64,000 bases of DNA from Acidobacteriota bacterium (GTDB lineage: Bacteria > Acidobacteriota > Vicinamibacteria > Fen-336). Below, one piece after another: positions 27,427 through 41,434 of the stretch. The stretch spans positions 1 to 64,000 of the forward strand of contig JAJDNS010000044.1 of the NCBI GenBank assembly GCA_022340585.1, read 5' to 3'. A program made the position numbers and the translations under genes. Every line of letters starts with the position of its first letter. Position 1 is the first letter of the stretch. Under the pieces are notes generated by a model. That model saw nothing but the letters and a program-made list of their open reading frames with translations. It did not search any database and was not told the origin of the DNA.

Positions 27427-28569
27427 ATGGACGACCTCCGGTCTTTCGCGAGTCCCGACACGGCTGAGGGCGGTCTGGACCGCCGCAGCTTCGTCAAGGT
27501 GATCACCATGGCCGCCGCCGCGGTCGGCCTCAACGCGAGCGCCGCGGCCCGGGTCGCGGAGGCGGCCGCCGCCGGGGTCAAGCCTTCGGTGATCTGGCTG
27601 CACTTCCAGGAGTGCACGGGGTGCACGGAGTCGCTCCTCCGCACCTCGCACCCGGACATCGCCAAGCTGATCCTGGACCTCGTCTCCCTGGACTACCACG
27701 AGACGCTGATGGCGGCGTCGGGGAACCAGGCCGAGGACGCGCTCCACGCGGCCATGAAGGCCAACGAAGGGAAGTACATCTGCGTGGTCGAGGGCGCGAT
27801 CCCCACCAGGGACGACGGGATCTACTGCATGATTGGCGGCAAGACCGCGCTCCAGCTGGTCGAGGAGGTCGCGGACAAGGCGGCGGCGGTCATCGCCATC
27901 GGCTCGTGCGCGTCCTGGGGCGGCATCCCCTCGGCCGACCCGAACCCCACCGGGGCCACCGGGGCCCCCACGGTCCTCAAGGACAAGGCGGTGGTGACCC
28001 TGCCGGGCTGTCCCGCCAACCCGTACATCTTCCTGGGCACCGCGCTGCAGTTCGTGGCCCTGGGTACGCTCCCGGCGCTGGACGACAAGGGGCGCCCGAT
28101 GTTCGCCTACGGTCGCACCATCCACGAGCACTGCCCGCGGCGGGCGCACTTCGACGCCGGTCGCTTCGTGCAGCAGTTCGGGGACGAGGGACACCGTCAG
28201 GGCTGGTGCCTCTACAAGACGGGCTGCAAGGGGCCGGCGACCCACGCGAGCTGCTCGACGCTGCAGTTCGGGGAGACGGTGGACGCCTGGCCCATCGGGC
28301 TCGGCCATCCCTGCTTCGGGTGCACCGAGCAGAAGGTGGCCTTCCGGGTGCCGCTCCACGACACCGTGGAGATCGACCGTCCGACTCCGCCCGACACCTA
28401 CCCGCCCATCGAGGCGTCGCAGGGCAAGGTGGGCGCCGTCGCCACCGGGCTCACCGGCCTCGTGGTGGGCGGGGCGCTGGGCGCCGGGTACAGGTTCGCG
28501 AAGAAGCTGAGCGCGGAGAACGAAGGCGATCCGCCGCCCCCCCCCGACGACAAGGAGGTGACGTCGTGA
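27427..28569 (+). CDS. hybO: [NiFe]-hydrogenase small subunit, Hyb type (group 1c)
   Basis: 380 residues. Tat signal DRRSFVKVITMAAAA. Iron-sulfur ligands: proximal cluster QECTGCTESLLR (C63, C66), GSCASWGG and PGCPANP; medial and distal clusters from IHEHCPRR, CLYKTGCKGP, CSTLQFGE and HPCFGCTE. The proximal motif is CTGC, as in E. coli HybO, not the CTCC of oxygen-tolerant membrane hydrogenases, so a standard [4Fe-4S] proximal cluster is expected. A C-terminal span (GLTGLVVGGALGAG) anchors it with a periplasmic catalytic face. Its stop overlaps the GTG start of the next gene. Confidence 0.95.
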   Translation: MDDLRSFASPDTAEGGLDRRSFVKVITMAAAAVGLNASAAARVAEAAAAGVKPSVIWLHFQECTGCTESLLRTSHPDIAKLILDLVSLDYHETLMAASGNQAEDALHAAMKANEGKYICVVEGAIPTRDDGIYCMIGGKTALQLVEEVADKAAAVIAIGSCASWGGIPSADPNPTGATGAPTVLKDKAVVTLPGCPANPYIFLGTALQFVALGTLPALDDKGRPMFAYGRTIHEHCPRRAHFDAGRFVQQFGDEGHRQGWCLYKTGCKGPATHASCSTLQFGETVDAWPIGLGHPCFGCTEQKVAFRVPLHDTVEIDRPTPPDTYPPIEASQGKVGAVATGLTGLVVGGALGAGYRFAKKLSAENEGDPPPPPDDKEVTS

Positions 28570-29513
28570 ATCCCGGCCGGCGGCGCGCCCTGCGCGTGCT
28601 CGCCGGGACGGGGGCGGCCACCGCGGCCGCGGCCTCGCCGGTTGCGGCAAGCCGCGCCTCCGGAGTGGTTCCTCCCGAAGCGGTGGGCATGCTCTACGAC
28701 ACCACGCGATGCATCGGCTGCAAGGCCTGCGTCTCGGCCTGCCTGAGGGCCAACGACCTGGAGCCCGACCGCAGCCCGGACGGCCTGTACCAGGCCCCTC
28801 TGGGCCTGAACTCCAGGACCAAGAACGTCATCAAGCTCTACAAGGACGAGCAGCAGACCTCCTACGTGAAGATGCAGTGCATGCACTGCGTGGACCCGGC
28901 GTGCGCCAGCGCGTGCATGCTGGGCTCGCTCCACAAGGACGAGACCACCGGCATCGTCAGCTACGACCCCAGCTACTGCGTCGGGTGCCGCTATTGCCAG
29001 ATGGCCTGCCCGTTCGAGGTGACGAAGTTCGAGTTCGACAAGGCGGTCCCGAAGATCGTGAAGTGCGAGCTGTGCCGGCACCGGGTGCAGGACGCCACCT
29101 TCACGCAGACCGACAGCGGCTTCAGCCGCTACCCCCGGGGCCACGGCCCCGCGTGCTGCGAGGTCTGTCCTCGAGAGGCCGTCATCTACGGCAAGCGCAG
29201 CGAGCTGTTGGCCGAGGCGAAGAGGCGTCTCGACGCGAATCCCGACGCCTACGTGCCGAAGGTCTACGGCGAGACCGAGGCCGGCGGCACCCAGGTGCTG
29301 TACCTGTCCCACGTGGACTTCGAGAAGCTGGGCCTTCCCGACTACGGCGACCAGGGCATTCCCCACGTGGCCTACGCGGTCCAGGAGGGGATCTACAAGG
29401 GCTTCATCGCCCCCGTGGCCCTCTACACCGCGCTGGGCCTCGTGATGCTGCGCAACCGGAAGAAGGAGGACGGCCCCGATGCGGCCGATTCAGGGAAGGG
29501 GGTGGCGCCGTGA
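28566..29513 (+). CDS. hybA: Hydrogenase ferredoxin-like subunit HybA
   Basis: 315 residues from GTG 28566, overlapping the hybO stop (GTGA). Tat-like leader NPGRRRALRVLAGTGAAT. Four ferredoxin-type Cys groups: CIGCKACVSAC; CMHCVDPACASAC; CVGCRYCQMAC; and CELCRH plus CCEVCP, giving up to four [4Fe-4S] clusters. A C-terminal span (GFIAPVALYTALGLVML) anchors it. It would relay electrons from the small subunit to HybB. Confidence 0.93.
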   Translation: MNPGRRRALRVLAGTGAATAAAASPVAASRASGVVPPEAVGMLYDTTRCIGCKACVSACLRANDLEPDRSPDGLYQAPLGLNSRTKNVIKLYKDEQQTSYVKMQCMHCVDPACASACMLGSLHKDETTGIVSYDPSYCVGCRYCQMACPFEVTKFEFDKAVPKIVKCELCRHRVQDATFTQTDSGFSRYPRGHGPACCEVCPREAVIYGKRSELLAEAKRRLDANPDAYVPKVYGETEAGGTQVLYLSHVDFEKLGLPDYGDQGIPHVAYAVQEGIYKGFIAPVALYTALGLVMLRNRKKEDGPDAADSGKGVAP

Positions 29514-30694
29514 GCCACGACACCGTCCACTCCCCGGTGGGAGGGTCGCTCTGGACCCGTCCCGTCCGCATCCTCCTGGTCTTCGTGGCCCTCGGCGCCA
29601 TCATGACCGTGTGGCGCTTTGCCGCCGGTCTCGGCGCGGTGAGCAACCTCAACGACGGCTACCCCTGGGGTGTCTGGATCGCCTTCGACGTGGTGACCGG
29701 CACCGCCCTGGGCTGCGGGGGCTACGCCGTCGCCCTCCTCGTCTACATCCTGAACAAGGGCGAGTACCACCCCCTGGTGCGACCGGCCATCCTGACCAGC
29801 CTCCTCGGCTACGGGCTCGCGGTCCTGGCGGTGACCATCGACCTGGGCCGGCCCTGGTCGCTGTGGAAGGTGCCCGTCTTCTTCTGGCGCTGGACGGGGT
29901 CGCCTCAGCTCGAGGTCGCGCTGTGCGTGGCGGCCTACGTCGCGGTGCTCCTGGTGGAGCTGTCGCCAGCCTTCTTCGAGAAGTGGTCTCAGAGCCCGGA
30001 CACGGGCCTCGGCCGCTTCGCCGAGAAGGGGCTCCGTTTCGTCACGCGCTGGCAGGTCTGGATCATCGCCCTCGGGCTGCTCCTGCCCACGATGCACCAG
30101 TCCTCGCTCGGCACGATGATGCTCCTGACCGGGCCCAAGCTCGACCCCCTGTGGTTCACCCCGTGGCTGCCGTTCCTGTTCCTCGTCAACTGCGTCATCA
30201 TCGGCTACGGGGTCGTGGTCCTCGAAGGCCACCTCGCCTCGAGCGCCTTCGGCCGTCCCCGGGAGACGGAGATGCTCGGGCGCCTGGCGAGGGTCGTCAT
30301 GTGGGTCGCCTGGTTCTTCTTCGCCTTCCGCCTGATCGACGTCGGCCTGCGCGGGCAGCTCGGGCGCGTCTTTGCCGATCTTCGCGGATTCGCGTTCCTG
30401 GTCGAGATGCTGCTGCTGGCCGGCGGGGCGTTGATCTTCACCTCGGAAACCCGCCGCCGCGATCCGGGGCAGCAGTTCCTCGGCGGCATGGTGCTGATCA
30501 CCGCCGGCGTCGTCTACCGGTTCAATGTCTACCTGGTGGGCTTCGCCCCCGGGGACGAGTGGAGCTACTTCCCGGCCGTCCCGGAGCTGCTCATCACCTT
30601 CGGTATCGTGGCCCTCGAGGTCGTCCTCTACGTGGCCGCGGTGACGGTGTTCCCGATCCTGGCCGGCCCCCGGGAGGAGCCGGCCCGCGCCTGA
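29510..30694 (+). CDS. hybB: Hydrogenase integral membrane subunit HybB (NrfD/PsrC family)
   Basis: 394 residues from GTG 29510, overlapping the hybA stop (GTGA). Nine or ten membrane spans, including WGVWIAFDVVTGTALGCGGY and MHQSSLGTMMLLTGPKLDPL, which are hallmarks of HybB. No haem is expected in this family. It passes electrons between the HybA clusters and the quinone pool, and in E. coli Hyd-2 couples this to proton movement. The hybC start is 26 nt after its stop. Confidence 0.93.
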   Translation: MSHDTVHSPVGGSLWTRPVRILLVFVALGAIMTVWRFAAGLGAVSNLNDGYPWGVWIAFDVVTGTALGCGGYAVALLVYILNKGEYHPLVRPAILTSLLGYGLAVLAVTIDLGRPWSLWKVPVFFWRWTGSPQLEVALCVAAYVAVLLVELSPAFFEKWSQSPDTGLGRFAEKGLRFVTRWQVWIIALGLLLPTMHQSSLGTMMLLTGPKLDPLWFTPWLPFLFLVNCVIIGYGVVVLEGHLASSAFGRPRETEMLGRLARVVMWVAWFFFAFRLIDVGLRGQLGRVFADLRGFAFLVEMLLLAGGALIFTSETRRRDPGQQFLGGMVLITAGVVYRFNVYLVGFAPGDEWSYFPAVPELLITFGIVALEVVLYVAAVTVFPILAGPREEPARA

Positions 30695-30719
30695 CGGCGG
30701 CGAGGAGAGGAAGAGAGAC

Positions 30720-32417
30720 ATGACCAGAATCGTCATCGACCCGATCACGCGGATCGAAGGTCACCTGCGCATCGACGTGGAGGTGGACGGAGGCTCGGTA
30801 CGCAACGCCTGGGCATCGGGGCAGATGTGGCGGGGAATCGAGAACATCCTCGTCGGCCGCGACCCGCGAGAGGCCTGGATCTTCACCCAGCGCATCTGCG
30901 GGGTCTGCACCACCGTGCACGCCATCACCTCGGTGCGGGCGGTGGAGAACGCCCTGCAGCTCGAGATCCCGAAGAACGCGCAGTACATCCGGAACCTCAT
31001 CGTGATCGCCCACGCCCTCCACGATCACATCGTGCACTTCTACCACCTCTCGGCCCTCGACTGGGTGGACGTGGTGTCCGCGCTGAAGGCCGACCCAGCC
31101 AAGGCCTCGGCCCTCGCCGAGAGCCTGTCGCCGTGGCCGATGAACGGCACGGTGGCGCTCCAGGCCACCCGGGACAAGCTGAAGTCCTTCGTGGACGCCG
31201 GTCAGCTGGGAATCTTCGCCAACGGCTACTGGGGCCACCCGGCGATGAAGCTGCCCCCGGAGGTGAACCTGCTGGGCGTGCACCACTACCTGCAGGCCCT
31301 CGACTACCAGCGCAAGGCCAACGAGGTGGTGACGACCCTGGGGTCGAAGACGCCGAACATCCAGAACCTCGCGGTGGGCGGGGTGGCCAACGCCATCAAC
31401 CTCGACAACCAGGCCACCCTCAACATGGAGAAGCTGTACCGGGTGAAGAGCCTCCTCGACGAGGTCGTCGGCTTCGTACAGCAGGTCTACGTCCCGGACG
31501 TGTGCGCCATCGGGGCGATGTACCCGGAGTGGCTGGGCCACGGCGCCGGAGTCACCAACTACCTCGCGGTCCCGGATCTCCCGGTGGACACCACCGGGAC
31601 CGAGTGCGACCTGCCCGGCGGGACGATCATGAACGGTGACTTCTCGACGCACAAGGCGATCACCAGCTTCAACGACGACTACTTCCGGGACGGCGTCGAG
31701 GAGTCGATCGCCCACTCGTGGTACGACGGCGACTGGCAGAGGCATCCCTACGAGGAAGAGACCGTCCCGAACCACACCGAGTACGACGAGAAGGGCAAGT
31801 ACTCCTGGGTGAAGGCCCCCCGCTTCCAGGGCCAGCCCATGCAGGTGGGTCCGCTGGCCCAGGTGCTGGTGGGATACGTCGCGGGGCACGAGCCCACCAA
31901 GCGGTGGGCGGACGCGGCCCTGGGGAAGGTCTCGGCGGTGGCCGGGGTGAAGGTGACGCCGGCCATGCTCCACTCCACCCTCGGGCGGCACGCGGCGCGG
32001 GCGGTGCGTACCGCGGTCATCTCCGAGCTGGGGCAGAAGCACTGGCAGCTCCTGGTCGAGAACATCGCCAGCGGCGACACCGACATCTTCAACCCCCCGT
32101 CGTTCCCCAGCGGGGAGGTGCGGGGCTACGGCTTCCACGAGGCTCCGCGGGGCACCCTCTCGCACTGGGCGGTCATCCAGGGCGGGAAGATCAAGAACTA
32201 CCAGGCGGTGGTTCCCACCACGTGGAACGCCAGCCCCCGCGATTCGAAGGACCAGAAGGGCCCCTACGAGGCCTCGCTCGTCGGAAACCCCATCGCCGAC
32301 CCGGAGCGCCCCCTCGAGGTGCTGCGGACCATCCACTCCTTCGACCCCTGCCTGGCCTGCGCCATCCACACCCTGGACCTCGAGGGAAGAGAGGTCGCGC
32401 GGGTGAAGGCGCTATAG
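30720..32417 (+). CDS. hybC: [NiFe]-hydrogenase large subunit HybC
   Basis: 565 residues. Nickel ligands: RICGVCTTVHA (C60, C63) and DPCLACAIH (C544, C547). Maturation cleavage is expected after H550, releasing a 15-residue tail (TLDLEGREVARVKAL). N-terminal ITRIEGHLRIDVEVDG and HDHIVHFYHLSALDWVD are typical of group 1. It holds the Ni-Fe(CN)2CO active site for H2 oxidation or evolution. SD GAGAGGAAGAG lies just upstream. The C-terminal peptide shows that the HybD protease downstream is needed. Confidence 0.96.
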   Translation: MTRIVIDPITRIEGHLRIDVEVDGGSVRNAWASGQMWRGIENILVGRDPREAWIFTQRICGVCTTVHAITSVRAVENALQLEIPKNAQYIRNLIVIAHALHDHIVHFYHLSALDWVDVVSALKADPAKASALAESLSPWPMNGTVALQATRDKLKSFVDAGQLGIFANGYWGHPAMKLPPEVNLLGVHHYLQALDYQRKANEVVTTLGSKTPNIQNLAVGGVANAINLDNQATLNMEKLYRVKSLLDEVVGFVQQVYVPDVCAIGAMYPEWLGHGAGVTNYLAVPDLPVDTTGTECDLPGGTIMNGDFSTHKAITSFNDDYFRDGVEESIAHSWYDGDWQRHPYEEETVPNHTEYDEKGKYSWVKAPRFQGQPMQVGPLAQVLVGYVAGHEPTKRWADAALGKVSAVAGVKVTPAMLHSTLGRHAARAVRTAVISELGQKHWQLLVENIASGDTDIFNPPSFPSGEVRGYGFHEAPRGTLSHWAVIQGGKIKNYQAVVPTTWNASPRDSKDQKGPYEASLVGNPIADPERPLEVLRTIHSFDPCLACAIHTLDLEGREVARVKAL

Positions 32418-32421
32418 AGAG

Positions 32422-32466
32422 GTGCTCGCCGCCTATCTCGCCGAGCACGGCCCCTGTCCGCAATGA
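32422..32466 (+). other. 14-codon mini-ORF overlapping the hybD start
   Basis: GTG 32422 opens a frame VLAAYLAEHGPCPQ that ends with TGA at 32464-32466, overlapping the hybD ATG as ATGA. GAGAG lies directly upstream. In an operon where other junctions are coupled this way, it could carry ribosomes from hybC to hybD; it could equally be chance. Confidence 0.25.
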
Positions 32467-33014
32467 ACGCCCCCCCGATCGGGGTCGTTGGCCTGGGCAA
32501 CGTCCTGATGGGAGACGACGCCTTCGGTCCCTGGGTGATCCAGGTGCTGCTGGCGGAGCACGTCTTTGCCGAGGGGGTGGCGGTGAGCGACCTGGGGACC
32601 CCGGGGCTCGACCTGGTGCCCTGGGTGACGAACGTCGGGGCCCTGATCCTCGTCGACACCGTGCGTGCGGACGCGCCTCCGGGGACCATCCGGCTCTACC
32701 GTCGTGACGAGATCCTGAAGCACCCCCCCCAGGCCCGCCTGACCCCTCACGACCCCGGGCTCAAGGAGGCGCTGCTCACCGCCGAGTTCGCGGGACAGGC
32801 GCCCGCAGAGGTCCTGCTCGTGGGGGCGGTGCCGGAGCGCACGGAGATGGGTGTAGGCTTGAGCCCGGCCGTCCGGGGCGCGGTGGGGCCCGCTGTCGTC
32901 GAGGTGCTCCGTGAGCTCGAGCGCCTGGGTCGGCCCGCCACGCGGCGGGACACGCCCTTGACGCCGCAGACCTGGTGGGAGGAGCCCGGGGCCGAGGAGC
33001 GTCCGGAGAGCTGA
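32463..33014 (+). CDS. hybD: Hydrogenase maturation endopeptidase HybD
   Basis: 183 residues. Family motifs: VVGLGNVLMGDDAFGP with the nickel-sensing Glu position replaced by Asp-Asp (GDD; E. coli HybD has GDE), DLGTPGLDLVPWV, and LTPHDPGLKEAL with the His ligand. It removes the C-terminal tail of the large subunit after nickel insertion. The C-terminal 25 residues are an extra hydrophilic tail. Its stop overlaps the next start (TGATG). Confidence 0.92.
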   Translation: MNAPPIGVVGLGNVLMGDDAFGPWVIQVLLAEHVFAEGVAVSDLGTPGLDLVPWVTNVGALILVDTVRADAPPGTIRLYRRDEILKHPPQARLTPHDPGLKEALLTAEFAGQAPAEVLLVGAVPERTEMGVGLSPAVRGAVGPAVVEVLRELERLGRPATRRDTPLTPQTWWEEPGAEERPES

Positions 33015-33457
33015 TGGCCAGCCGAGAGAGCATGGTGGCGTCGGACCCGCCGGGGCCAGGTGTCGCCCGCGCCGAGCGGGCGCTCGTGGTCCTCATCGCC
33101 GTGCACAGCATCGCGGTCGGCCTGTTCCTGGTCCTCGCTCCCGAATGGGGGGCCCGTTTCGGCGGCTTCGGCCCGGTTCAGCCCCTCTTCTTCGCCCGCC
33201 AGGCCGGGGCCTTTCATTTCGTGGCGGCCACGGCGTACCTGGTCGAGTACTTCCGCTACCGGGGCGTGCTGCTGCTCGTCGTCACGAAGTCGGTGGCCGT
33301 CGTGTTCCTCCTGCTCACGTCCGCCGTCGACTCGGTCCCCTGGGTCGTTCCCCTCTCCGGGGTGGCGGACGGCCTCATGGGCCTCGCCGTCGTCCTTGTC
33401 CGGAGGGTCGAGGGGAGGGATCTCGCCGGTCCCTGCGGGTGGAGGAGCGCGCCATGA
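33014..33457 (+). CDS. Small membrane protein inside the hydrogenase operon
   Basis: 147 residues with four predicted membrane spans (ALVVLIAVHSIAVGLFLVLA; FFARQAGAFHFVAATAYLVE; VLLLVVTKSVAVVFLLLTSA; VVPLSGVADGLMGLAVVLV). No cofactor motif, though two His (HSI, HFV) lie in spans. It resembles general DUF4345-like small membrane proteins; I do not recognise a hydrogenase family. ATG 33014 overlaps the hybD stop and its own stop overlaps the Rieske start (ATGA), so expression is tied to the hydrogenase. Confidence 0.8.
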   Translation: MASRESMVASDPPGPGVARAERALVVLIAVHSIAVGLFLVLAPEWGARFGGFGPVQPLFFARQAGAFHFVAATAYLVEYFRYRGVLLLVVTKSVAVVFLLLTSAVDSVPWVVPLSGVADGLMGLAVVLVRRVEGRDLAGPCGWRSAP

Positions 33458-33873
33458 GCGGAGCCCGATCCGGGGGGGGGCCCTCGTCCCGTGTCCGGCG
33501 GCGCACGCTGGCCGTCCTCGGGGCCGGGCTCGGCGCCCCTCTGGTGAATGCCTGTGCCCCGGCGCCGCCGCCCGACCGCCGGGTTCGCGTTCCGCTCCGG
33601 GAGCTCTCCTCCGGGAAGCGGGTGATCGTGGACTACGACGACACCCCGGTGGAGCTGGTGCGCACTGATGCCGGCATCGTGACCCGGAGCCTGCTGTGCA
33701 CCCACTTCGGGTGCCGGGTGCGCTGGAGCGAGGAGGACGCTCGCTACGTCTGCGCGTGCCACGGAGGCGCCTTCGACGCCGAGGGGCAGCCCGTGGCCGG
33801 GCCTCCGAATCGCCGGCTGGCGCCGGTCCGGTTCGAGCTCGCCGGCGACGAGGTCGTGGTGGGGGAGCCATGA
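33454..33873 (+). CDS. Rieske [2Fe-2S] protein, probable Tat-exported lipoprotein
   Basis: 139 residues. The leader RVRRRTLAVLGAGLGAPLVNAC combines twin arginines with a lipobox-like VNAC, which suggests Tat export and lipid anchoring at about Cys34. The cluster motif is complete: LLCTHFGCRVRW (C-x-H-x-G-C) and VCACHGGAFDAEG (C-x-C-H). The spacing is short, as in QcrA/arsenite-oxidase-type small Rieske subunits. No cytochrome b of a bc complex is adjacent. It begins ATGA-overlapped with the membrane protein and ends ATGA-overlapped with the SDR gene. A periplasmic electron carrier for the hydrogenase is inferred. Confidence 0.88.
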   Translation: MSGARSGGGPSSRVRRRTLAVLGAGLGAPLVNACAPAPPPDRRVRVPLRELSSGKRVIVDYDDTPVELVRTDAGIVTRSLLCTHFGCRVRWSEEDARYVCACHGGAFDAEGQPVAGPPNRRLAPVRFELAGDEVVVGEP

Positions 33874-35471
33874 GCCTCCCGCGTCTCGTGGTGACCGGGG
33901 CCTCCGGCTTCGTGGGTCGCCACCTCCTCGAGGAGCTCAAGGAGGACCACCGCATCGTCGGCCTCGCCCGTCGCTCGCAGGCGCGGTCCGGGGCCCCGGT
34001 GCACCCGAACATCACCTGGCACCAGGCCGACATCGGCGACCGTGCGGCCATCGCCCCGATCTTCGCGGAGATCGAGCGCGCCGGCGGCGCCGACCAGCTC
34101 ATCCATCTCGCCGCTCACTACGACTTCACCGGCGAGGACCATCCGGAGTACTGGCGGACCAACGTGGACGGGCTGCGCCACGTGCTCGAGCTGTCGAAGG
34201 GGCTCGGGCTGAAGCGCTTCGTCTTCTCCAGCTCGACCGCCGCGTGCGCCTTCCCGGCCGAAGGGAGCGCTCTCACCGAGGAGACTCCCCCCGATGGAGA
34301 CCACCTGTACGCCCGCACCAAGGCCATCGGCGAGCGGATGCTCGTCGAGTACGAGGAGCACTTCCCGTCGACCATCCTCCGCTTCGCCGCGCTCTTCTCG
34401 GACTGGTGCGAGTACCCGCCGCTGTTCATGTTCCTCGAGACGTGGCTGTCGAAGGCCTGGAACGCCCGGGTCCTCGGCGGGCGGGGGCACTCGGCGATCC
34501 CGTACCTCCACGTCGACGACCTCACCCTCTTCTTCCAGGAGCTTCTCCACCACGGCGGCGAGCTTCCCCCGGGGGTGGTCCTGCAGGCGAGCCCGGACGG
34601 CGCCACCTCCCACCAGGAGCTGTTCGACGAGGCGACGAGGATCCACTTCGACGGGCCCCGGAAGGCGATCCACATGCCCCGTCCGCTGTGCGGGCCCGGC
34701 ATGTGGGCCCTCGACGTGGCGGGCCGGCTGGTCGGTCGACGCCCGTTCGAGCGCCCCTGGATGGCGCGCTACATCGACAAGGCGATGACCATCGACGCGA
34801 GGCGGACCCGCGAGCTACTGGGCTGGGAGCCGCGGCCGCGCCTCCACGTCCTCCAGCGGCTGCCGTTTCTCCTGGAGAACCGCCGCACCGACGCCATCGA
34901 GTGGATGCGCGCCAACCGGGAGGCGATGAAGGAGGGGCACGTCGAGACCAACCTCCTGATCCACCGGCTCCTGAAGAAGCACGCGTCGGAGATCGCGGCC
35001 GAGTTCACCGGGGTCCTGATGGGCCCCGAGGGGCAGGAGCGGTTCCCGAGCTACCAGGACGTCAGCGACGACGACCATCGGTGGAACCACACCCTGATCC
35101 TCCGACACCTCATGAACGCGGTGCGGACGCGCGAGCGGGGCATCCTGGTCTCGTACTGCCGAGACCTCGCGGAGCGGCGCTTCGAGCAGGGCTTCGAGGC
35201 CCGGGAGGTCTGCGACGCCCTGCGCGAGCTCAACCGGATCGCCTTCAAGCACCTGCGCCGTGACCCGGAGTCCAGGGGTCTCCGCGAGGACATCAAGCAA
35301 CACGTCACCATGACCCTCACGTGGGGCTGTGACGAGGCGCAGCAGGTGTTCGAGCACCTCGAGGTGCGGTGCCGGAACAGCCACCTCCGACCGAGCTGTC
35401 GGAAGCGCCGCGAGGCCACCGCCCAACGGGCCGCCCTGGTCTCCGCGGGCGAGGACGAGTCGGCCCCGTAG
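33870..35471 (+). CDS. SDR (NAD-dependent epimerase-like) fused to an RsbRD-N-like helical domain
   Basis: 533 residues. Residues 1-335 are an extended SDR: VVTGASGFVGRHL (GxxGxxG), LIHLAAHYDF, FSSSTAACAFP and YARTKAIGE (YxxxK catalytic pair). Residues about 355-505 (VETNLLIHRLLKKHASEIAA ... LAERRFEQGFEAREVCDALR) look like the four-helix N-terminal domain of RsbRD-type RsbT co-antagonists, which serves as a signal input module. I do not know this fusion from hydrogenase operons. ATG 33870 overlaps the Rieske stop, and hypF starts 21 nt downstream. The substrate is unknown; a sugar-nucleotide or redox-sensing role is open. Confidence 0.75.
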   Translation: MSLPRLVVTGASGFVGRHLLEELKEDHRIVGLARRSQARSGAPVHPNITWHQADIGDRAAIAPIFAEIERAGGADQLIHLAAHYDFTGEDHPEYWRTNVDGLRHVLELSKGLGLKRFVFSSSTAACAFPAEGSALTEETPPDGDHLYARTKAIGERMLVEYEEHFPSTILRFAALFSDWCEYPPLFMFLETWLSKAWNARVLGGRGHSAIPYLHVDDLTLFFQELLHHGGELPPGVVLQASPDGATSHQELFDEATRIHFDGPRKAIHMPRPLCGPGMWALDVAGRLVGRRPFERPWMARYIDKAMTIDARRTRELLGWEPRPRLHVLQRLPFLLENRRTDAIEWMRANREAMKEGHVETNLLIHRLLKKHASEIAAEFTGVLMGPEGQERFPSYQDVSDDDHRWNHTLILRHLMNAVRTRERGILVSYCRDLAERRFEQGFEAREVCDALRELNRIAFKHLRRDPESRGLREDIKQHVTMTLTWGCDEAQQVFEHLEVRCRNSHLRPSCRKRREATAQRAALVSAGEDESAP

Positions 35472-35492
35472 CCCTCGGGCTCCTCCATCCCC

Positions 35493-37781
35493 ATGCCAGA
35501 CGAGGGTCGCCGCATCGAGGTCCGGGGCACGGTACAGGGAGTGGGCTTCCGGCCGTGGGTCTACCGGCTCGCCCGCGACGGGGGCGTCGCCGGGCGCGTG
35601 CGCAACGATGCCGCGGGGGTGACCATCGAGGCCTTCGGCCCGACCGAGGTCCTGGACCGGTTCGTGGCGCGGCTCCGAGCCGAGTCCCCTCCCCCCGCGG
35701 TTCTCGACGAGGTGCGTGTGGCCACGATCCCGGCGGAGACGGTGGCGGGTTTCGAGATCACGACCAGCGAGAGGGGGGAGCGTCGACGGGTGTCGATCCC
35801 TCCGGACCTCGCCACGTGTGGAGCCTGCCTGGCCGAGGTGCTCGACCCCGCCGACCGGAGACACCGCTACCCCTTCACCAACTGCACGGCGTGCGGCCCT
35901 CGGTACACGATCGCCCGCGACGTCCCGTACGACCGGGCGCACACGACCATGGCCGGGTTCGCCCTGTGCTCCCGCTGCTTCAATGAGTACGGGGACGCCG
36001 GGGACCGACGCTTCCACGCCCAGCCCAACGCCTGTCCGGACTGCGGCCCCCGGCTGCGGCTGGTCGACGGGGAGGGCTGGACGCTCGCCCCCGACTCGGC
36101 CGCCGGGGGGGCGGTCGAGGCGGCCGCGGCGCGCCTGCGTGCCGGTGCCATCGTCGCGGTGAAGGGCCTCGGAGGCTTCCACCTTGCCTGCGACGCCACC
36201 AGTCCCGGCGCCGTCCGCCTCCTCCGCGAGCGCAAGCGGCGGGACGAGAAGCCCTTCGCGGTGATGGTGCGCGACCTGGCCGAGGCGGAGCGATGGGCGG
36301 TGCTGGAGACGGAGGAGCGTCGTCTGCTGGAGGCGGTCGAGCGTCCCATCGTCCTCGTGCGTCGTCGGGAGGGGGAGGGACTCGCCGACGCGGTGGCGCC
36401 CGGGAACCCCCTCGTCGGCCTGCTCCTCGCTTACACCCCGCTCCACCACCTGCTCCTGGCGGAGACGGATCGGCCCCTGGTCATGACCTCGGGGAATCTG
36501 TCCGAGGAGCCCATGGCGGCCGGAGACGCGGAGGCGCGCGAGCGCCTGGCCGGGATCGCCGACCTGTTCCTCTCCCACGACCGGGAGATCGAGAACCGCT
36601 GCGACGACTCGGTGGCCCGGGTGATCGCCACCCGGCCCACGGTGCTGCGGCGGGCCCGCGGCTACGTGCCCCGGGCCGTGCCCCTCGTCCGCCCCGTGCG
36701 CCGGCCGGTGCTGGCGTGTGGCGCTCACCTCAAGAACACGTTCTGCTTCGCCGCCGGCGACCAGGCGTGGCTGGGGCCGCACGTGGGGGACCTGGACAAC
36801 CTCGAGGCGTGCCGGCACTACGAGGAGCAGATCGAGCGGTTCCAGCGCTTCCTGGGGATCCGCCCCGAGGTCGTGGCCCACGACCTGCACCCGGACTACT
36901 TCTCCACGATGCACGCCGAGCAGCGCCCCGAGCCGGTCAAGGTCGGGGTGCAGCACCACCATGCCCACGTGGCCAGCGCGATGGCCGAGCACGGTCTCGA
37001 AGGGCCGGTCCTGGGCCTGGCCTGGGACGGAACCGGTCTCGGGACCGACGGGACGGCGTGGGGCGGCGAGCTGCTGCTCGCCACCTTCGAGGGCTTCGAG
37101 CGCCTGGCGACGCTGCGGCCGTTGCGTCTGGCCGGTGGCGACGAGGCGATCCGGCAGGTCTGGCGGCTGGCCCTGGCCGCCCTCGACGACGCGTTCGACG
37201 GGGCCCCTCCCCTCGAGGAGCTCTCGCTGTTCCGCGAGGTCCCGGCGCGCGAGCGGTCCGTGGTCCGTCAGATGATCGCCAAGGGGGTGCAGGCGCCGCT
37301 GGCCCACGGGGCCGGGCGCTACTTCGACGCGGTCGGGGCTCTCGGCCTCGGCCGGCGCCGTGCGACCTACGAGGGGCAGGTCGCCCTGGAGTGGAACCTG
37401 GTGGCGGACGAGGGCGAGGCGGGGGCCTATCCCTTCTCCCTCCAGCGCGTGGGAGAGATGTCGGAGATCGACCTCCGGCCCACGGTGCGGGGAGTGGTCG
37501 ATGACCTGCTCGCCGGAGTCCCCGCTCCTGGGGTCTCCGCCCGCTTCCACAATGCCCTCGCCGAGGCCGCGGCGGCGGCGGTTGCCGAGGCCGCCGAGCG
37601 TCACGGGCCGCTCCCCGTGGTGCTGACCGGAGGGTGCTTCCAGAACGAGCGGCTCGTCGTCGACGTGCGGCGGCGACTCGAGCCCGCCCACGTGGTGTGG
37701 CAGCACGGCGAGGTGCCGCCAGGGGACGGAGGGCTCGCCCTGGGCCAGGCGCTGGTCGCCGATGCCGTGGGCAGGGCATGA
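35493..37781 (+). CDS. hypF: Carbamoyltransferase HypF
   Basis: 762 residues, full length. Acylphosphatase domain (1-90: VQGVGFRPWVYRLARDGGVA), two zinc-finger pairs (CGACLAEV ... CTACGPRYT; CSRCFNEY ... CPDCGPRL, about 107-180), YrdC-like domain (about 190-380: AIVAVKGLGGFHLACDAT, KRRDEKPFAVMVRD) and Kae1-like domain (KNTFCFAAGDQAWLGPHVGD, VQHHHAHVASAMAEHGLEGP, AWDGTGLGTDG). It converts carbamoyl phosphate and ATP to carbamoyl adenylate and loads HypE, the source of the active-site cyanides. Confidence 0.96.
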   Translation: MPDEGRRIEVRGTVQGVGFRPWVYRLARDGGVAGRVRNDAAGVTIEAFGPTEVLDRFVARLRAESPPPAVLDEVRVATIPAETVAGFEITTSERGERRRVSIPPDLATCGACLAEVLDPADRRHRYPFTNCTACGPRYTIARDVPYDRAHTTMAGFALCSRCFNEYGDAGDRRFHAQPNACPDCGPRLRLVDGEGWTLAPDSAAGGAVEAAAARLRAGAIVAVKGLGGFHLACDATSPGAVRLLRERKRRDEKPFAVMVRDLAEAERWAVLETEERRLLEAVERPIVLVRRREGEGLADAVAPGNPLVGLLLAYTPLHHLLLAETDRPLVMTSGNLSEEPMAAGDAEARERLAGIADLFLSHDREIENRCDDSVARVIATRPTVLRRARGYVPRAVPLVRPVRRPVLACGAHLKNTFCFAAGDQAWLGPHVGDLDNLEACRHYEEQIERFQRFLGIRPEVVAHDLHPDYFSTMHAEQRPEPVKVGVQHHHAHVASAMAEHGLEGPVLGLAWDGTGLGTDGTAWGGELLLATFEGFERLATLRPLRLAGGDEAIRQVWRLALAALDDAFDGAPPLEELSLFREVPARERSVVRQMIAKGVQAPLAHGAGRYFDAVGALGLGRRRATYEGQVALEWNLVADEGEAGAYPFSLQRVGEMSEIDLRPTVRGVVDDLLAGVPAPGVSARFHNALAEAAAAAVAEAAERHGPLPVVLTGGCFQNERLVVDVRRRLEPAHVVWQHGEVPPGDGGLALGQALVADAVGRA

Positions 37782-37847
37782 TGGAGGGGACACACGTCCC
37801 GGCCGGGGAGAGGACGGAGGACGGGACAGGAGAGGGGGACGACAGAC

Positions 37848-38138
37848 ATGTGCCTTGCGGTGCCGGGGAAGGTGATCCAGATCGACGGGGACGGTGAGCT
37901 GCGGATGGGGCGGGTGGACTTCTCCGGGGTGCAGCGTCAGGCCTGTCTCGCCTACGTGCCGGAGGTGCAGGTCGGGGACTACGTCCTGGTGCACGTGGGC
38001 TTTGCCATCTCCCGGATCGACGAGGAGGCGGCCCACGAGACCCTGGCCGCCCTGAAGGAGATGGGGGAGCTGGCCGAGCTGGGCCCCCCCCCCGACACCT
38101 CGGCGACGCCGGCGGCCGATGGCTCCGAGAGCTCCTGA
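37848..38138 (+). CDS. hypC: Hydrogenase maturation chaperone HypC
   Basis: 96 residues. Starts [13 protein letters not shown] with the essential Cys2, followed by [27 protein letters not shown] as in the HypC/HybG family. With HypD it carries the Fe(CN)2CO unit to the large-subunit precursor. GGAGAGGGGG lies upstream; the 66-bp gap after hypF is G-rich and without another gene. Its stop overlaps the hypD start (TGATG). Confidence 0.95.
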
Positions 38139-39262
38139 TGCGCCACGTCGACGAGTACCGCGATCCCGAGGCGGTCCGGGCCGTCGCCGATCGGATCCGC
38201 GAGACCGTCACGCGGCCGTGGACCCTCATGGAGGTCTGTGGGGGGCAGACTCACTCGATCCTCAAGTTCGGCCTCGACGAGCTCCTGCCCGCCGGGCTGA
38301 GCCTGGTGCACGGTCCCGGCTGCCCGGTCTGCGTCACCCCCCTGGAGATGATCGACCGCGCGGTGGCCATCGCCTCGCGGCCGGACGTCATCTTCTGCTC
38401 CTTCGGCGACATGCTCCGCGTGCCCGGCTCGCACACCGATCTCCTGAAGGTGAAGGCCGGTGGCGGTGACGTGCGGATCGTCTACTCGCCCCTGGACGCC
38501 CTCCGCCTGGCCCGGGAGAACCCCGGGCGGAAGGTCGTCTTCTTCGCGGTGGGCTTCGAGACCACTGCCCCCGCCAACGCCATGGCCGTGAGCCGGGCGG
38601 CGAAGGAGGGCCTCGAGAACTTCTCGGTCCTCGTGGCCCACGTTCTCGTGCCGCCGGCCCTCGAGGCCCTGCTGTCGAGCGAGGACGTGAGGATCCAGGG
38701 GCTGTTGGCCCCGGGGCACGTCTGCGCGGTCACCGGGTACCGGGACTACGAGCCGGTGGCCGAGAGACACGGGGTGCCCATCGTGGTCACCGGCTTCGAG
38801 CCGCTGGACCTGCTCGAGGGCGCCCTCGCCGCCGTGACCCAGCTCGAGAGTGGGCAGGCCCGGGTCGAGAACCGCTACCCCCGGGCGGTGGTCCGCGAGG
38901 GCAACCCCGCGGCCCTCAGGATGATCGACGACGTCTTCGTCGTCTCGGACCGGAGCTGGCGGGGAGTGGGAGAGATCCCGAGAAGCGGCTACACCCTCGC
39001 CCCGAAGTACTCCCGCCTCGACGCCGCCGAGGTGTTCGACGTGGGTGGGATCGAGGTGAACGAGCCCGAGGAGTGTCAGAGCGGGCTCGTGCTCCAGGGA
39101 CGGCTCCGGCCCAGCGAGTGCCCCGAGTTCGGCACCCGGTGCACCCCCGAGCACCCCCTGGGGGCCACCATGGTCTCGACCGAGGGGGCCTGCGCCGCGT
39201 ACTTCCACTACGGGCGGGCCCGCCAGGACGGGTCCAGCGCCCGGGCGGAGGGCACCGGGTGA
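38138..39262 (+). CDS. hypD: Hydrogenase maturation protein HypD
   Basis: 374 residues. Conserved motifs: [11 protein letters not shown] (Cys), [11 protein letters not shown] (Cys pair), [21 protein letters not shown], and the C-terminal [4Fe-4S] ligands around [20 protein letters not shown] and EGACAAY. It is the scaffold on which the Fe(CN)2CO group is built with HypC. Overlaps at both ends (TGATG with hypC, GTGA with hypE). Confidence 0.96.
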
Positions 39263-40314
39263 CGAGGAGGGTCGACGGGCTCCTCAGCTGCCCGACGCCG
39301 CTGGACCACGGCGACATCGTCCAGCTCGCCCACGGCGGCGGGGGGACCCTCACCTCCCGGCTCATCGACCGGCTGTTCGTCCCCGCGTTCCGCAATCCCC
39401 ACCTCGACTCACTCGGCGACGGCGCCGTCGTCACCGTGGGGGACACCCGCCTGGCCTTCACCACCGACAGCTTCGTGGTGAAGCCGGTCTTCTTCCCGGG
39501 AGGCGACATCGGCTCCCTGTCGGTGCACGGCACCGTGAACGACCTGGCCATGTGCGGAGCGGAGCCGCTCTATCTGAGCGCGGGTCTGGTGATCGAGGAA
39601 GGCTTCCTCATGAGCGACCTGGAGCGGGTCGTGGCAGCAATGGCGGAGGCCTGCGGCCACGTGGGGGTGACGCTGGTGACCGGCGACACCAAGGTGGTGG
39701 ACCGGGGCAAGGGTGACGGGATCTACGTGAACACGTCGGGGGTGGGCCGGGTCCGCGAGGGGGTGAGCGTCGGTCCGGCCCGGGCTGCCGCCGGAGACGC
39801 GGTACTGGTGTCGGGGCCGGTCGGGGACCACGGAATCGCGGTGATGGCGGCCCGGGAGGGCATCGACCTGGAGACCGAGCTCGTCTCCGACTCGGCCCCG
39901 GTCGTGGCCCCGGTGGGGGCTCTCCTCGAGGCGGTGCCCGAGACCCACGTCCTGCGCGATCCCACCCGGGGGGGGCTGGCCACCGCCCTCAGCGAGGTCG
40001 CGGTCGCGTCGAAGGTGGGCATTCGGCTGGAGGAGGCCCACATCCCGGTGCGGGACGAGGTGCGGGGCGCGTGCGAGCTGCTGGGGTTCGATCCTCTCTA
40101 CGTGGCCTGCGAGGGACGCTTCCTCGCGGTGGTGCCGGGGGAGCAGGCCGAGGAGGCGCTCCTCGCGGTCCGGTCCCAGCCCGGGGGGGAGGGGGCCCGG
40201 CTCATCGGCCGGGTCGTTGCCGAGGACCCGGGTCGCCTCGTGCTCCGCACCCGGATCGGCAGCCACCGTCTCCTGGAACGGCTCTCCGGGGAGCAGCTGC
40301 CGAGGATCTGCTGA
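39259..40314 (+). CDS. hypE: Carbamoyl dehydratase HypE
   Basis: 351 residues from GTG 39259. ATP-binding and PurM-like motifs: [48 protein letters not shown] and [17 protein letters not shown]. It ends PRIC, the conserved C-terminal Cys that is carbamoylated by HypF and dehydrated to thiocyanate. Its stop overlaps hypA (TGATG). Confidence 0.96.
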
Positions 40315-40652
40315 TGCACGAGTACTCGCTGGTGCGCGCGCTGGCCGACCGGGTGGAGGAGGAGGCCCGCTCCCGTCAGGCGGTGGCCGTGCACCGGCTC
40401 ACGGTGGCCATCGGAGCCGTCTCCGGCGTGGAGCCCGCGCTCTTCGAGACCGCGTTCTCGCTGTGTCGCGAGGGGATCCTCGCGGACGCCGAGCTCGAGA
40501 TCCGGCGCGTCGACGCCGCGTGGTCCTGCCCTTCCTGCGGCCGCGCGGTCCCCTCGGACCCCCCCCTCCGGTGCGCAGTGTGCGGGGAGGCCGCCCGGCT
40601 CAGCGGGGGAGACGAGCTCATCCTCGAGCAGATCGAGATGGAGGTGCCTTGA
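40314..40652 (+). CDS. hypA: Nickel-insertion protein HypA
   Basis: 112 residues. [10 protein letters not shown] gives the N-terminal nickel-binding His2. The zinc site is WSCPSCG and RCAVCG. It delivers nickel to the large subunit with HypB. Stop overlaps hypB (TGATG). Confidence 0.95.
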   Translation: MHEYSLVRALADRVEEEARSRQAVAVHRLTVAIGAVSGVEPALFETAFSLCREGILADAELEIRRVDAAWSCPSCGRAVPSDPPLRCAVCGEAARLSGGDELILEQIEMEVP

Positions 40653-41434
40653 TGTGCGACACCTGTGGGTGTGGCGACCCCAACGTGGTTTCGGTCGACG
40701 TGCACGAGAACATCCTCGCCGTCAACGACCGCACGGCGGCTCACAACCGGGAGCACCTGGACCGCCAGGGAATCCTCGCGGTCAACCTCATGGGCTCGCC
40801 CGGCGCCGGGAAGACCGCGGTCCTCGAGGCCACCGCGCGGGCCCTCTCGGGTCGGCGGCGCCTGGGAGTCATCGCCGGGGACCTGGAGACCGAGCGCGAC
40901 GCCGACCGCCTGCGGGCAGTGGACGTCCCGGCCGTCGCCATCACCACCGGGACCGCCTGCCACCTGGACGCGGAGATGGTTCACCGTGCGCTCCACGGGT
41001 TTCCCACCGGCGGTCTCGACTATCTCTTTGTCGAGAACGTGGGGAACCTCGTGTGCCCCGCCGTCTACGACCTGGGCCAGGCGGTGAGCGTGGTCGCCCT
41101 CTCGGTGACCGAGGGAGAGGACAAGCCGCTCAAGTACCCGGTGATGTTCCGCAAGGCCGACCTCGTCCTCCTCACCAAGGTCGACCTGCTGCCCCACCTG
41201 GAGCTGGACGTCTCCGCTCTGGAGGCGGGCCTCGCCCGGGTGGCCCCGGCGGCGTCCCTGCTCCCGCTCTCGGCCCGGACCGCCGAGGGCGTGAGCGTGT
41301 GGGTGGACTGGCTCGAGGCTCGGGCCGCGTCGCGACCGAAGCCGTCCGGCGAGGGACTGGGCCACCACCACGAAGATGGCCGTGGCATGATAGATGCGGC
41401 CGCCGGGAGCGGCGGGAGATCGAGGGATCGATGA
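40652..41434 (+). CDS. hypB: Hydrogenase nickel-incorporation GTPase HypB
   Basis: 260 residues. N-terminal MCDTCGCGD is the high-affinity nickel CxxCxC motif. GTPase motifs: LMGSPGAGKTAVLE (P-loop), ENVGNLVCP, and LTKVDLL (guanine specificity NKxD-like). A short His-containing stretch (GLGHHHEDG) lies near the C-terminus rather than the N-terminus. Stop overlaps the permease-like gene (ATGA). Confidence 0.95.
   Translation: MCDTCGCGDPNVVSVDVHENILAVNDRTAAHNREHLDRQGILAVNLMGSPGAGKTAVLEATARALSGRRRLGVIAGDLETERDADRLRAVDVPAVAITTGTACHLDAEMVHRALHGFPTGGLDYLFVENVGNLVCPAVYDLGQAVSVVALSVTEGEDKPLKYPVMFRKADLVLLTKVDLLPHLELDVSALEAGLARVAPAASLLPLSARTAEGVSVWVDWLEARAASRPKPSGEGLGHHHEDGRGMIDAAAGSGGRSRDR

Follow-up and report, generated by a model that had tools for sequence, protein, structure and literature searches.

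Hyb-type hydrogenases are usually taken as complete once their structural and maturation genes are in place. In a 64,000-nucleotide stretch of Acidobacteriota DNA (hereafter the window), a hyb operon carries three further genes between hybD and hypF, which raises the question of whether these genes belong with the hydrogenase and what they might do there.

A Hyb locus with three additional genes

The locus is a run of genes on the forward strand (27427–41434) in the order hybO-hybA-hybB-hybC-hybD-orf1-Rieske-SDR-hypF-hypC-hypD-hypE-hypA-hypB. The small subunit gene hybO (27427–28569) encodes a Tat-type leader with Oxidored_q6 and NiFe_hyd_SSU_C domains and scores 437 bits against the hydrogenase 2 small subunit model; hybA (28566–29513) encodes a ferredoxin-type iron-sulfur subunit (Fer4_11, Fer4_7 and others) whose translation ends in a C-terminal hydrophobic stretch, and hybB (29510–30694) an NrfD-type membrane subunit (PF03916, 8.5e-10). 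The large subunit encoded by hybC (30720–32417; PF00374, 3.6e-220) has E. coli hydrogenase-2 as its top PDB match (1.5e-216), and together with HybO, HybA and the NrfD-type HybB this assigns the enzyme, as judged by similarity, to group 1c (Hyb). The maturation protease gene hybD (32463–33014; HycI, 2.7e-21; TIGR00072) follows hybC after 45 bases. Further maturation genes lie downstream, beginning with hypF (35493–37781; HypF domains) and continuing with hypC, hypD, hypE, hypA and hypB (37848–41434), which were assigned from their ORFs and translations and from tblastn conservation with other hyb/hyp loci.

The three additional genes encode a 147-residue predicted four-helix membrane protein (orf1, 33014–33457), a Rieske [2Fe-2S] protein (33454–33873), and an extended SDR fused to a helical RsbRD_N-like domain (33870–35471; hereafter SDR). 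A sequence-only reading of the window had described these genes as linked by overlaps, and the overlaps are present as described: TGATG at the hybD/orf1 junction (33012–33016), ATGA at orf1/Rieske (33454–33457) and ATGA at Rieske/SDR (33870–33873), with a spacer of 21 bases from SDR to hypF. From these overlaps we infer that the three genes are probably translated together with the hydrogenase. The E. coli hybOABCDEFG operon, whose hydrogenase-2 is the best match of HybC, resembles the window in the order hybO, hybA, hybB, hybC, hybD and in its hyp genes, but the three additional genes set the window apart: to our knowledge, the E. coli operon contains no gene of the orf1, Rieske or SDR type.

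orf1 and SDR form a conserved pair, separable from the Rieske gene

We surveyed 396 Acidobacteriota genomes, mostly fragmented assemblies with several MAGs among them, in which related genomes are not independent; a close hybC was defined by at least 60% identity, genes of the relatives were called with a simple script, and many neighbor functions were read by eye. SDR is present in 24 of these genomes, a close hybC in 33 and orf1 in 19. Co-occurrence with hybOABC, which the sequence-only reading had put up for checking, is supported: SDR is found in 18 of the 33 genomes with a close hybC versus 6 of the 363 others (Fisher p = 1.8e-17, an optimistic value as relatives count several times). Similarly, 18 of the 24 SDR genomes also have orf1, which is otherwise present in a single genome (p = 4e-25, optimistic for the same reason).

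Of the 24 genomes that encode SDR, 18 have it next to hyb or hyp genes. At least four arrangements occur: SDR may follow hybD, converge with hyb, diverge from hypA, or end the series hypD-hypE-orf1-SDR. In four genomes (G383, G322, G288 and G260), orf1 remains beside hyb genes while SDR is on a separate contig. In G178 and G396 the orf1-SDR pair follows hypDE; here a close hybC is absent, and other group 1 and group 3 type hydrogenases are present. These data show that in Acidobacteriota orf1 and SDR make up a conserved accessory unit of two genes that belongs to [NiFe]-hydrogenase loci, mostly those of the Hyb type.

SDR is absent from 15 of the 33 close-hybC genomes, including two with full hyb and hyp clusters (G308 and G056), and is thus inessential to Hyb. 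It also occurs away from hyb and hyp genes in G260, G288, G346, G074, G310 and G347, where its neighbors include an oxidase operon (which precedes the copy at L110), multihaem cytochromes (beside the copy at L106) and an ATP synthase operon. SDR is rare in Desulfobacterota (2 of 247 genomes); one genome of that phylum, G422, carries four SDR copies in other contexts, with an SQR-like oxidoreductase and Hdr-like genes as neighbors. Across the tree, gene contexts group together more than under label shuffling, and no single origin is seen. The sequence-only reading had named hyb operons free of these genes, and occurrence of the genes elsewhere, as the marks of a chance insertion. Both are found, but they carry this refutation only halfway: the linkage to hyb and hyp genes holds up when the gene order is rearranged, and this speaks against chance. 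Together with the co-occurrence statistics, it leads us to reject a chance insertion.

In the Desulfobacterales MAG G422, hybC contains an in-frame TGA exactly at the second Cys of the N-terminal RxCGxC motif (L149 8096; G422:C142). This genome encodes SelB, so selenocysteine may be incorporated at this position, and a sequencing error is also conceivable; we saw no convincing SECIS fold for this TGA.

The Rieske gene is distributed differently. It adjoins hyb or hyp genes in G007, G012, G013, G024, G219, G308, G354 and G233, none of which has a DsrM match in a protein search. In two of these, G308 (where it lies between hypB and hypF) and G233, it occurs in hyb/hyp loci that have no SDR; G354, G233 and genus g7 have a copy on the opposite strand, upstream of hybO. 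Conversely, it is missing from most genomes that have hyb, SDR and dsrM. The genome of the window combines all three of Rieske, SDR and dsrM. The single three-gene module first proposed for this locus therefore does not hold: Rieske segregates from orf1 and SDR, and is a separable, optional addition, independent of the pair.

Sequence features of the three proteins

The Rieske protein contains a Rieske domain (PF00355, 5.9e-10) as its only Pfam domain. The cluster ligands C82, H84, C100 and H103 lie in the motif CTHFGC...CACHGG, matching the CxH...CxxH pattern shared with the Rieske subunits of b6f/bc1 complexes and arsenite oxidase, and an alignment identifies both disulfide cysteines. Its best PDB profile match is a b6f Rieske protein, although it scores below all NCBIfam cut-offs. 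The alignment also places G105 and F107 at the Ser and Tyr positions of high-potential Rieske proteins, where replacements are known from mutants to affect the potential; the Gly and Phe at these positions suggest a lower potential. As judged by eye, the protein has a twin arginine, a hydrophobic stretch and a lipobox-like cysteine (C34), and such a leader and lipobox recur in Rieske relatives linked to hyb or hyp genes. The protein is thus predicted to be a Tat-exported lipoprotein, as had been suggested for it earlier. A precedent for a hydrogenase-associated protein with a Rieske-type motif is HucE, an accessory protein of group 2a hydrogenases that has been proposed to act in electron transfer (PMC6883350). 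HucE joins this motif to a NifU-like domain, whereas the window's protein is a short Tat-type lipoprotein with a Rieske domain only. Genus g7 encodes a second Rieske-like lipoprotein upstream of hybO (L021 17793, L022 1958, L023 14109) in which Gln replaces the second cluster His (CPCQ).

orf1 matches no Pfam family in a profile search, and a fold search with its predicted model returned no usable PDB match. This model shows four helices at high confidence (mean pLDDT 85.7). Fifteen positions are invariant across 17 homologues, among them H31, Q63, H68 and K92, and both H31 and H68 are kept even in a homologue only 30% identical. H31 is ~10 residues short of the end of helix 1, and H68 is ~10 residues into helix 2; the two would therefore share a similar depth. 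This histidine pair may form a cofactor site.

Residues 1–350 of SDR form an extended SDR (Epimerase PF01370, 1.1e-28) with the TGxxGxxG motif (TGASGFVG), a catalytic serine (SSS) and YxxxK (Y147xxxK151); TGASGF, S121/S122, Y147 and K151 are invariant in an alignment of eight homologues. The predicted model (pLDDT 80.7) has UDP-sugar 4-epimerases as its nearest folds, and HpnA is the nearest NCBIfam model (65 bits versus a cut-off of 368 bits). SDR thus shares its fold, glycine motif and catalytic S-Y-K with the NDP-sugar epimerases, which would be consistent with an unremarkable epimerase acting on nucleotide sugars or lipids, placed in this operon simply for convenience of regulation. However, we consider this decidedly unlikely. 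The hyb/hyp linkage survives rearrangement, and where NAD-type relatives end beta-2 with an acidic residue, SDR has Ala followed by an invariant R34-R35-S36. This replacement sets it apart from NAD-type epimerases, as does its C-terminal helical domain, and suggests a preference for NADP(H).

The C-terminal domain (residues ~355–505) is predicted as a helical bundle with a pLDDT of ~90; searched alone, it matches no PDB sequence. RsbRD_N (PF14361) aligns to residues 365–463 at 18.1 bits, below the Pfam gathering cut-off of 24.3, and the best score among SDR copies in the genome search, 22.8 bits, is also below it; four of eight family members reach E<0.01. In hhalign comparisons, the domain matches RsbRD_N with E-values of 1.2e-4 and 2.7e-5, versus 0.48 for an unrelated control alignment, and both are helical and share an R..QGF...E motif. 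These data support a distant but real homology to RsbRD_N, sub-threshold though the match is, and the fusion of an SDR to an RsbRD_N-like domain recognized in the initial reading of the sequence stands in this form.

The same reading had connected this domain with a partner-switching regulator, such that SDR would sense redox or NAD(P) state and signal through its RsbRD-like domain. Apart from the weak RsbRD_N similarity, this idea draws on two loci in which SDR has as neighbors a histidine kinase, which in L118 contains a Cache domain, and a gene for a receiver domain only (L118 1655–7303; L107 5364–9420); G294 has two SDR copies here. Unlike a typical sensor of this kind, however, SDR has no STAS domain in a Pfam search, its full set of catalytic residues is kept, and we saw by eye no evident rsbS/rsbT-like gene in those SDR neighborhoods that were read. 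True RsbRD_N proteins in this and two other genomes, moreover, belong to dsr operons. Since it has no STAS domain, and since true RsbRD_N sits before dsrM, we do not read SDR as a partner-switching sensor, and we rate the proposal as quite improbable. More generally, RsbRD_N annotations outside Bacillota that come without a STAS domain call for caution before they are taken as stressosome sensors.

Possible roles at respiratory complexes and in maturation

In the window's genome, the gene for the true RsbRD_N protein (71 bits) immediately precedes dsrM in a dsrMKJOP operon. With this one included, a stand-alone RsbRD_N gene is found directly before dsrM in three genomes (L171, G000:C147; L172, G294:C17; L170, G422:C70), and in two of the three this gene comes after dsrC. 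By DsrM protein search, DsrM is present in 12 of 18 close-hybC genomes with SDR versus 1 of 15 without. A DsrD family search gave no match anywhere, even in the window's genome, whose dsr locus has a 78-residue ORF resembling DsrD by eye, so that this outcome carries no information. Group 1 hydrogenases occur in dsr-bearing Acidobacteria (PMC6018796), and the enrichment of SDR in dsrM-carrying hyb lineages may bear on H2-driven sulfur respiration. A Dsr-specific part as the sole reading was rejected, as SDR adjoins hyb in genomes with no DsrM match (G007, G012, G013, G024, G219 and G354). One broader idea, which we regard as unlikely, is that helical domains of the RsbRD_N type serve, in Acidobacteriota and in sulfate reducers, as adaptors on the cytoplasmic side of respiratory complexes linked to quinone. 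One form would be the stand-alone protein of dsrMKJOP; in the other, the domain would be joined to an NADP(H)-dependent SDR acting on Hyb together with a four-helix membrane protein.

Taking these data together, we favor a role for SDR at the membrane, as an NADP(H)-type accessory to respiratory complexes that are linked to quinone, in this case Hyb; a maturation role is a close rival, and a stressosome-like reading is weak. In this proposal, SDR would be an active enzyme that prefers NADP(H), and orf1 and the helical C-terminal domain of SDR itself would keep it at the cytoplasmic face of the membrane. There it would serve the quinone-linked Hyb complex, either by exchanging or adjusting reducing equivalents or by modifying a substrate that is quinone-like or a lipid. 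In lineages with periplasmic acceptors, the Rieske protein on the periplasmic face could provide a second, moderate-potential electron outlet for Hyb. The respiratory contexts that we count in favor are the RsbRD_N genes before dsrM in three genomes and the SDR copies at L110, L106 and in G422; against it we count the 15 close-hybC genomes without SDR, and the lack of a fold match for orf1. We put forward the joint proposal, comprising a conserved Hyb accessory pair, a membrane-held NADP(H)-type SDR serving Hyb and a Rieske protein as an optional outlet, tentatively and at somewhat less than an even chance.

The linkage to hyp genes would suit a maturation role equally well. Here, orf1 and SDR would help [NiFe]-hydrogenases to mature or assemble, with SDR making or reducing a component required to insert the cofactor or for assembly in the membrane. 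The pair follows the protease gene hybD, or SDR adjoins hypA-hypB-hypF, and because the pair follows hypDE in G178 and G396, which have other hydrogenases in place of a close hybC, we treat this as the main rival. It is harder to reconcile with the close-hybC genomes without SDR, above all G308 and G056 with their full clusters, and with SDR copies in respiratory contexts devoid of hydrogenase genes (L019, L106 and L110); we judge it possible, on the unlikely side. Whether as the respiratory accessory that we favor or as an assembly factor, a conserved enzyme and membrane protein pair may point to an unsuspected step in the entry of H2 electrons into the quinone pool or in hydrogenase assembly.

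Literature searches for RsbRD with hydrogenase found no paper, and those for SDR or epimerase with Hyb loci found nothing specific; a 2025 neighborhood survey includes a generic cluster of epimerases in the vicinity of [NiFe]-hydrogenases but gives no details on it. Within the literature searched, the orf1-SDR pair thus appears to be undescribed, in agreement with what had been surmised from the window itself. Our data suggest that the pair, joined in some loci by a separate iron-sulfur lipoprotein, is an uncharacterized accessory part of bacterial hydrogen metabolism. On a short contig free of hydrogenase genes, the window's own genome encodes a second SDR-RsbRD-like protein (L002; G000:C194:1-1071), which is 42% identical to the first and lies at the contig edge.
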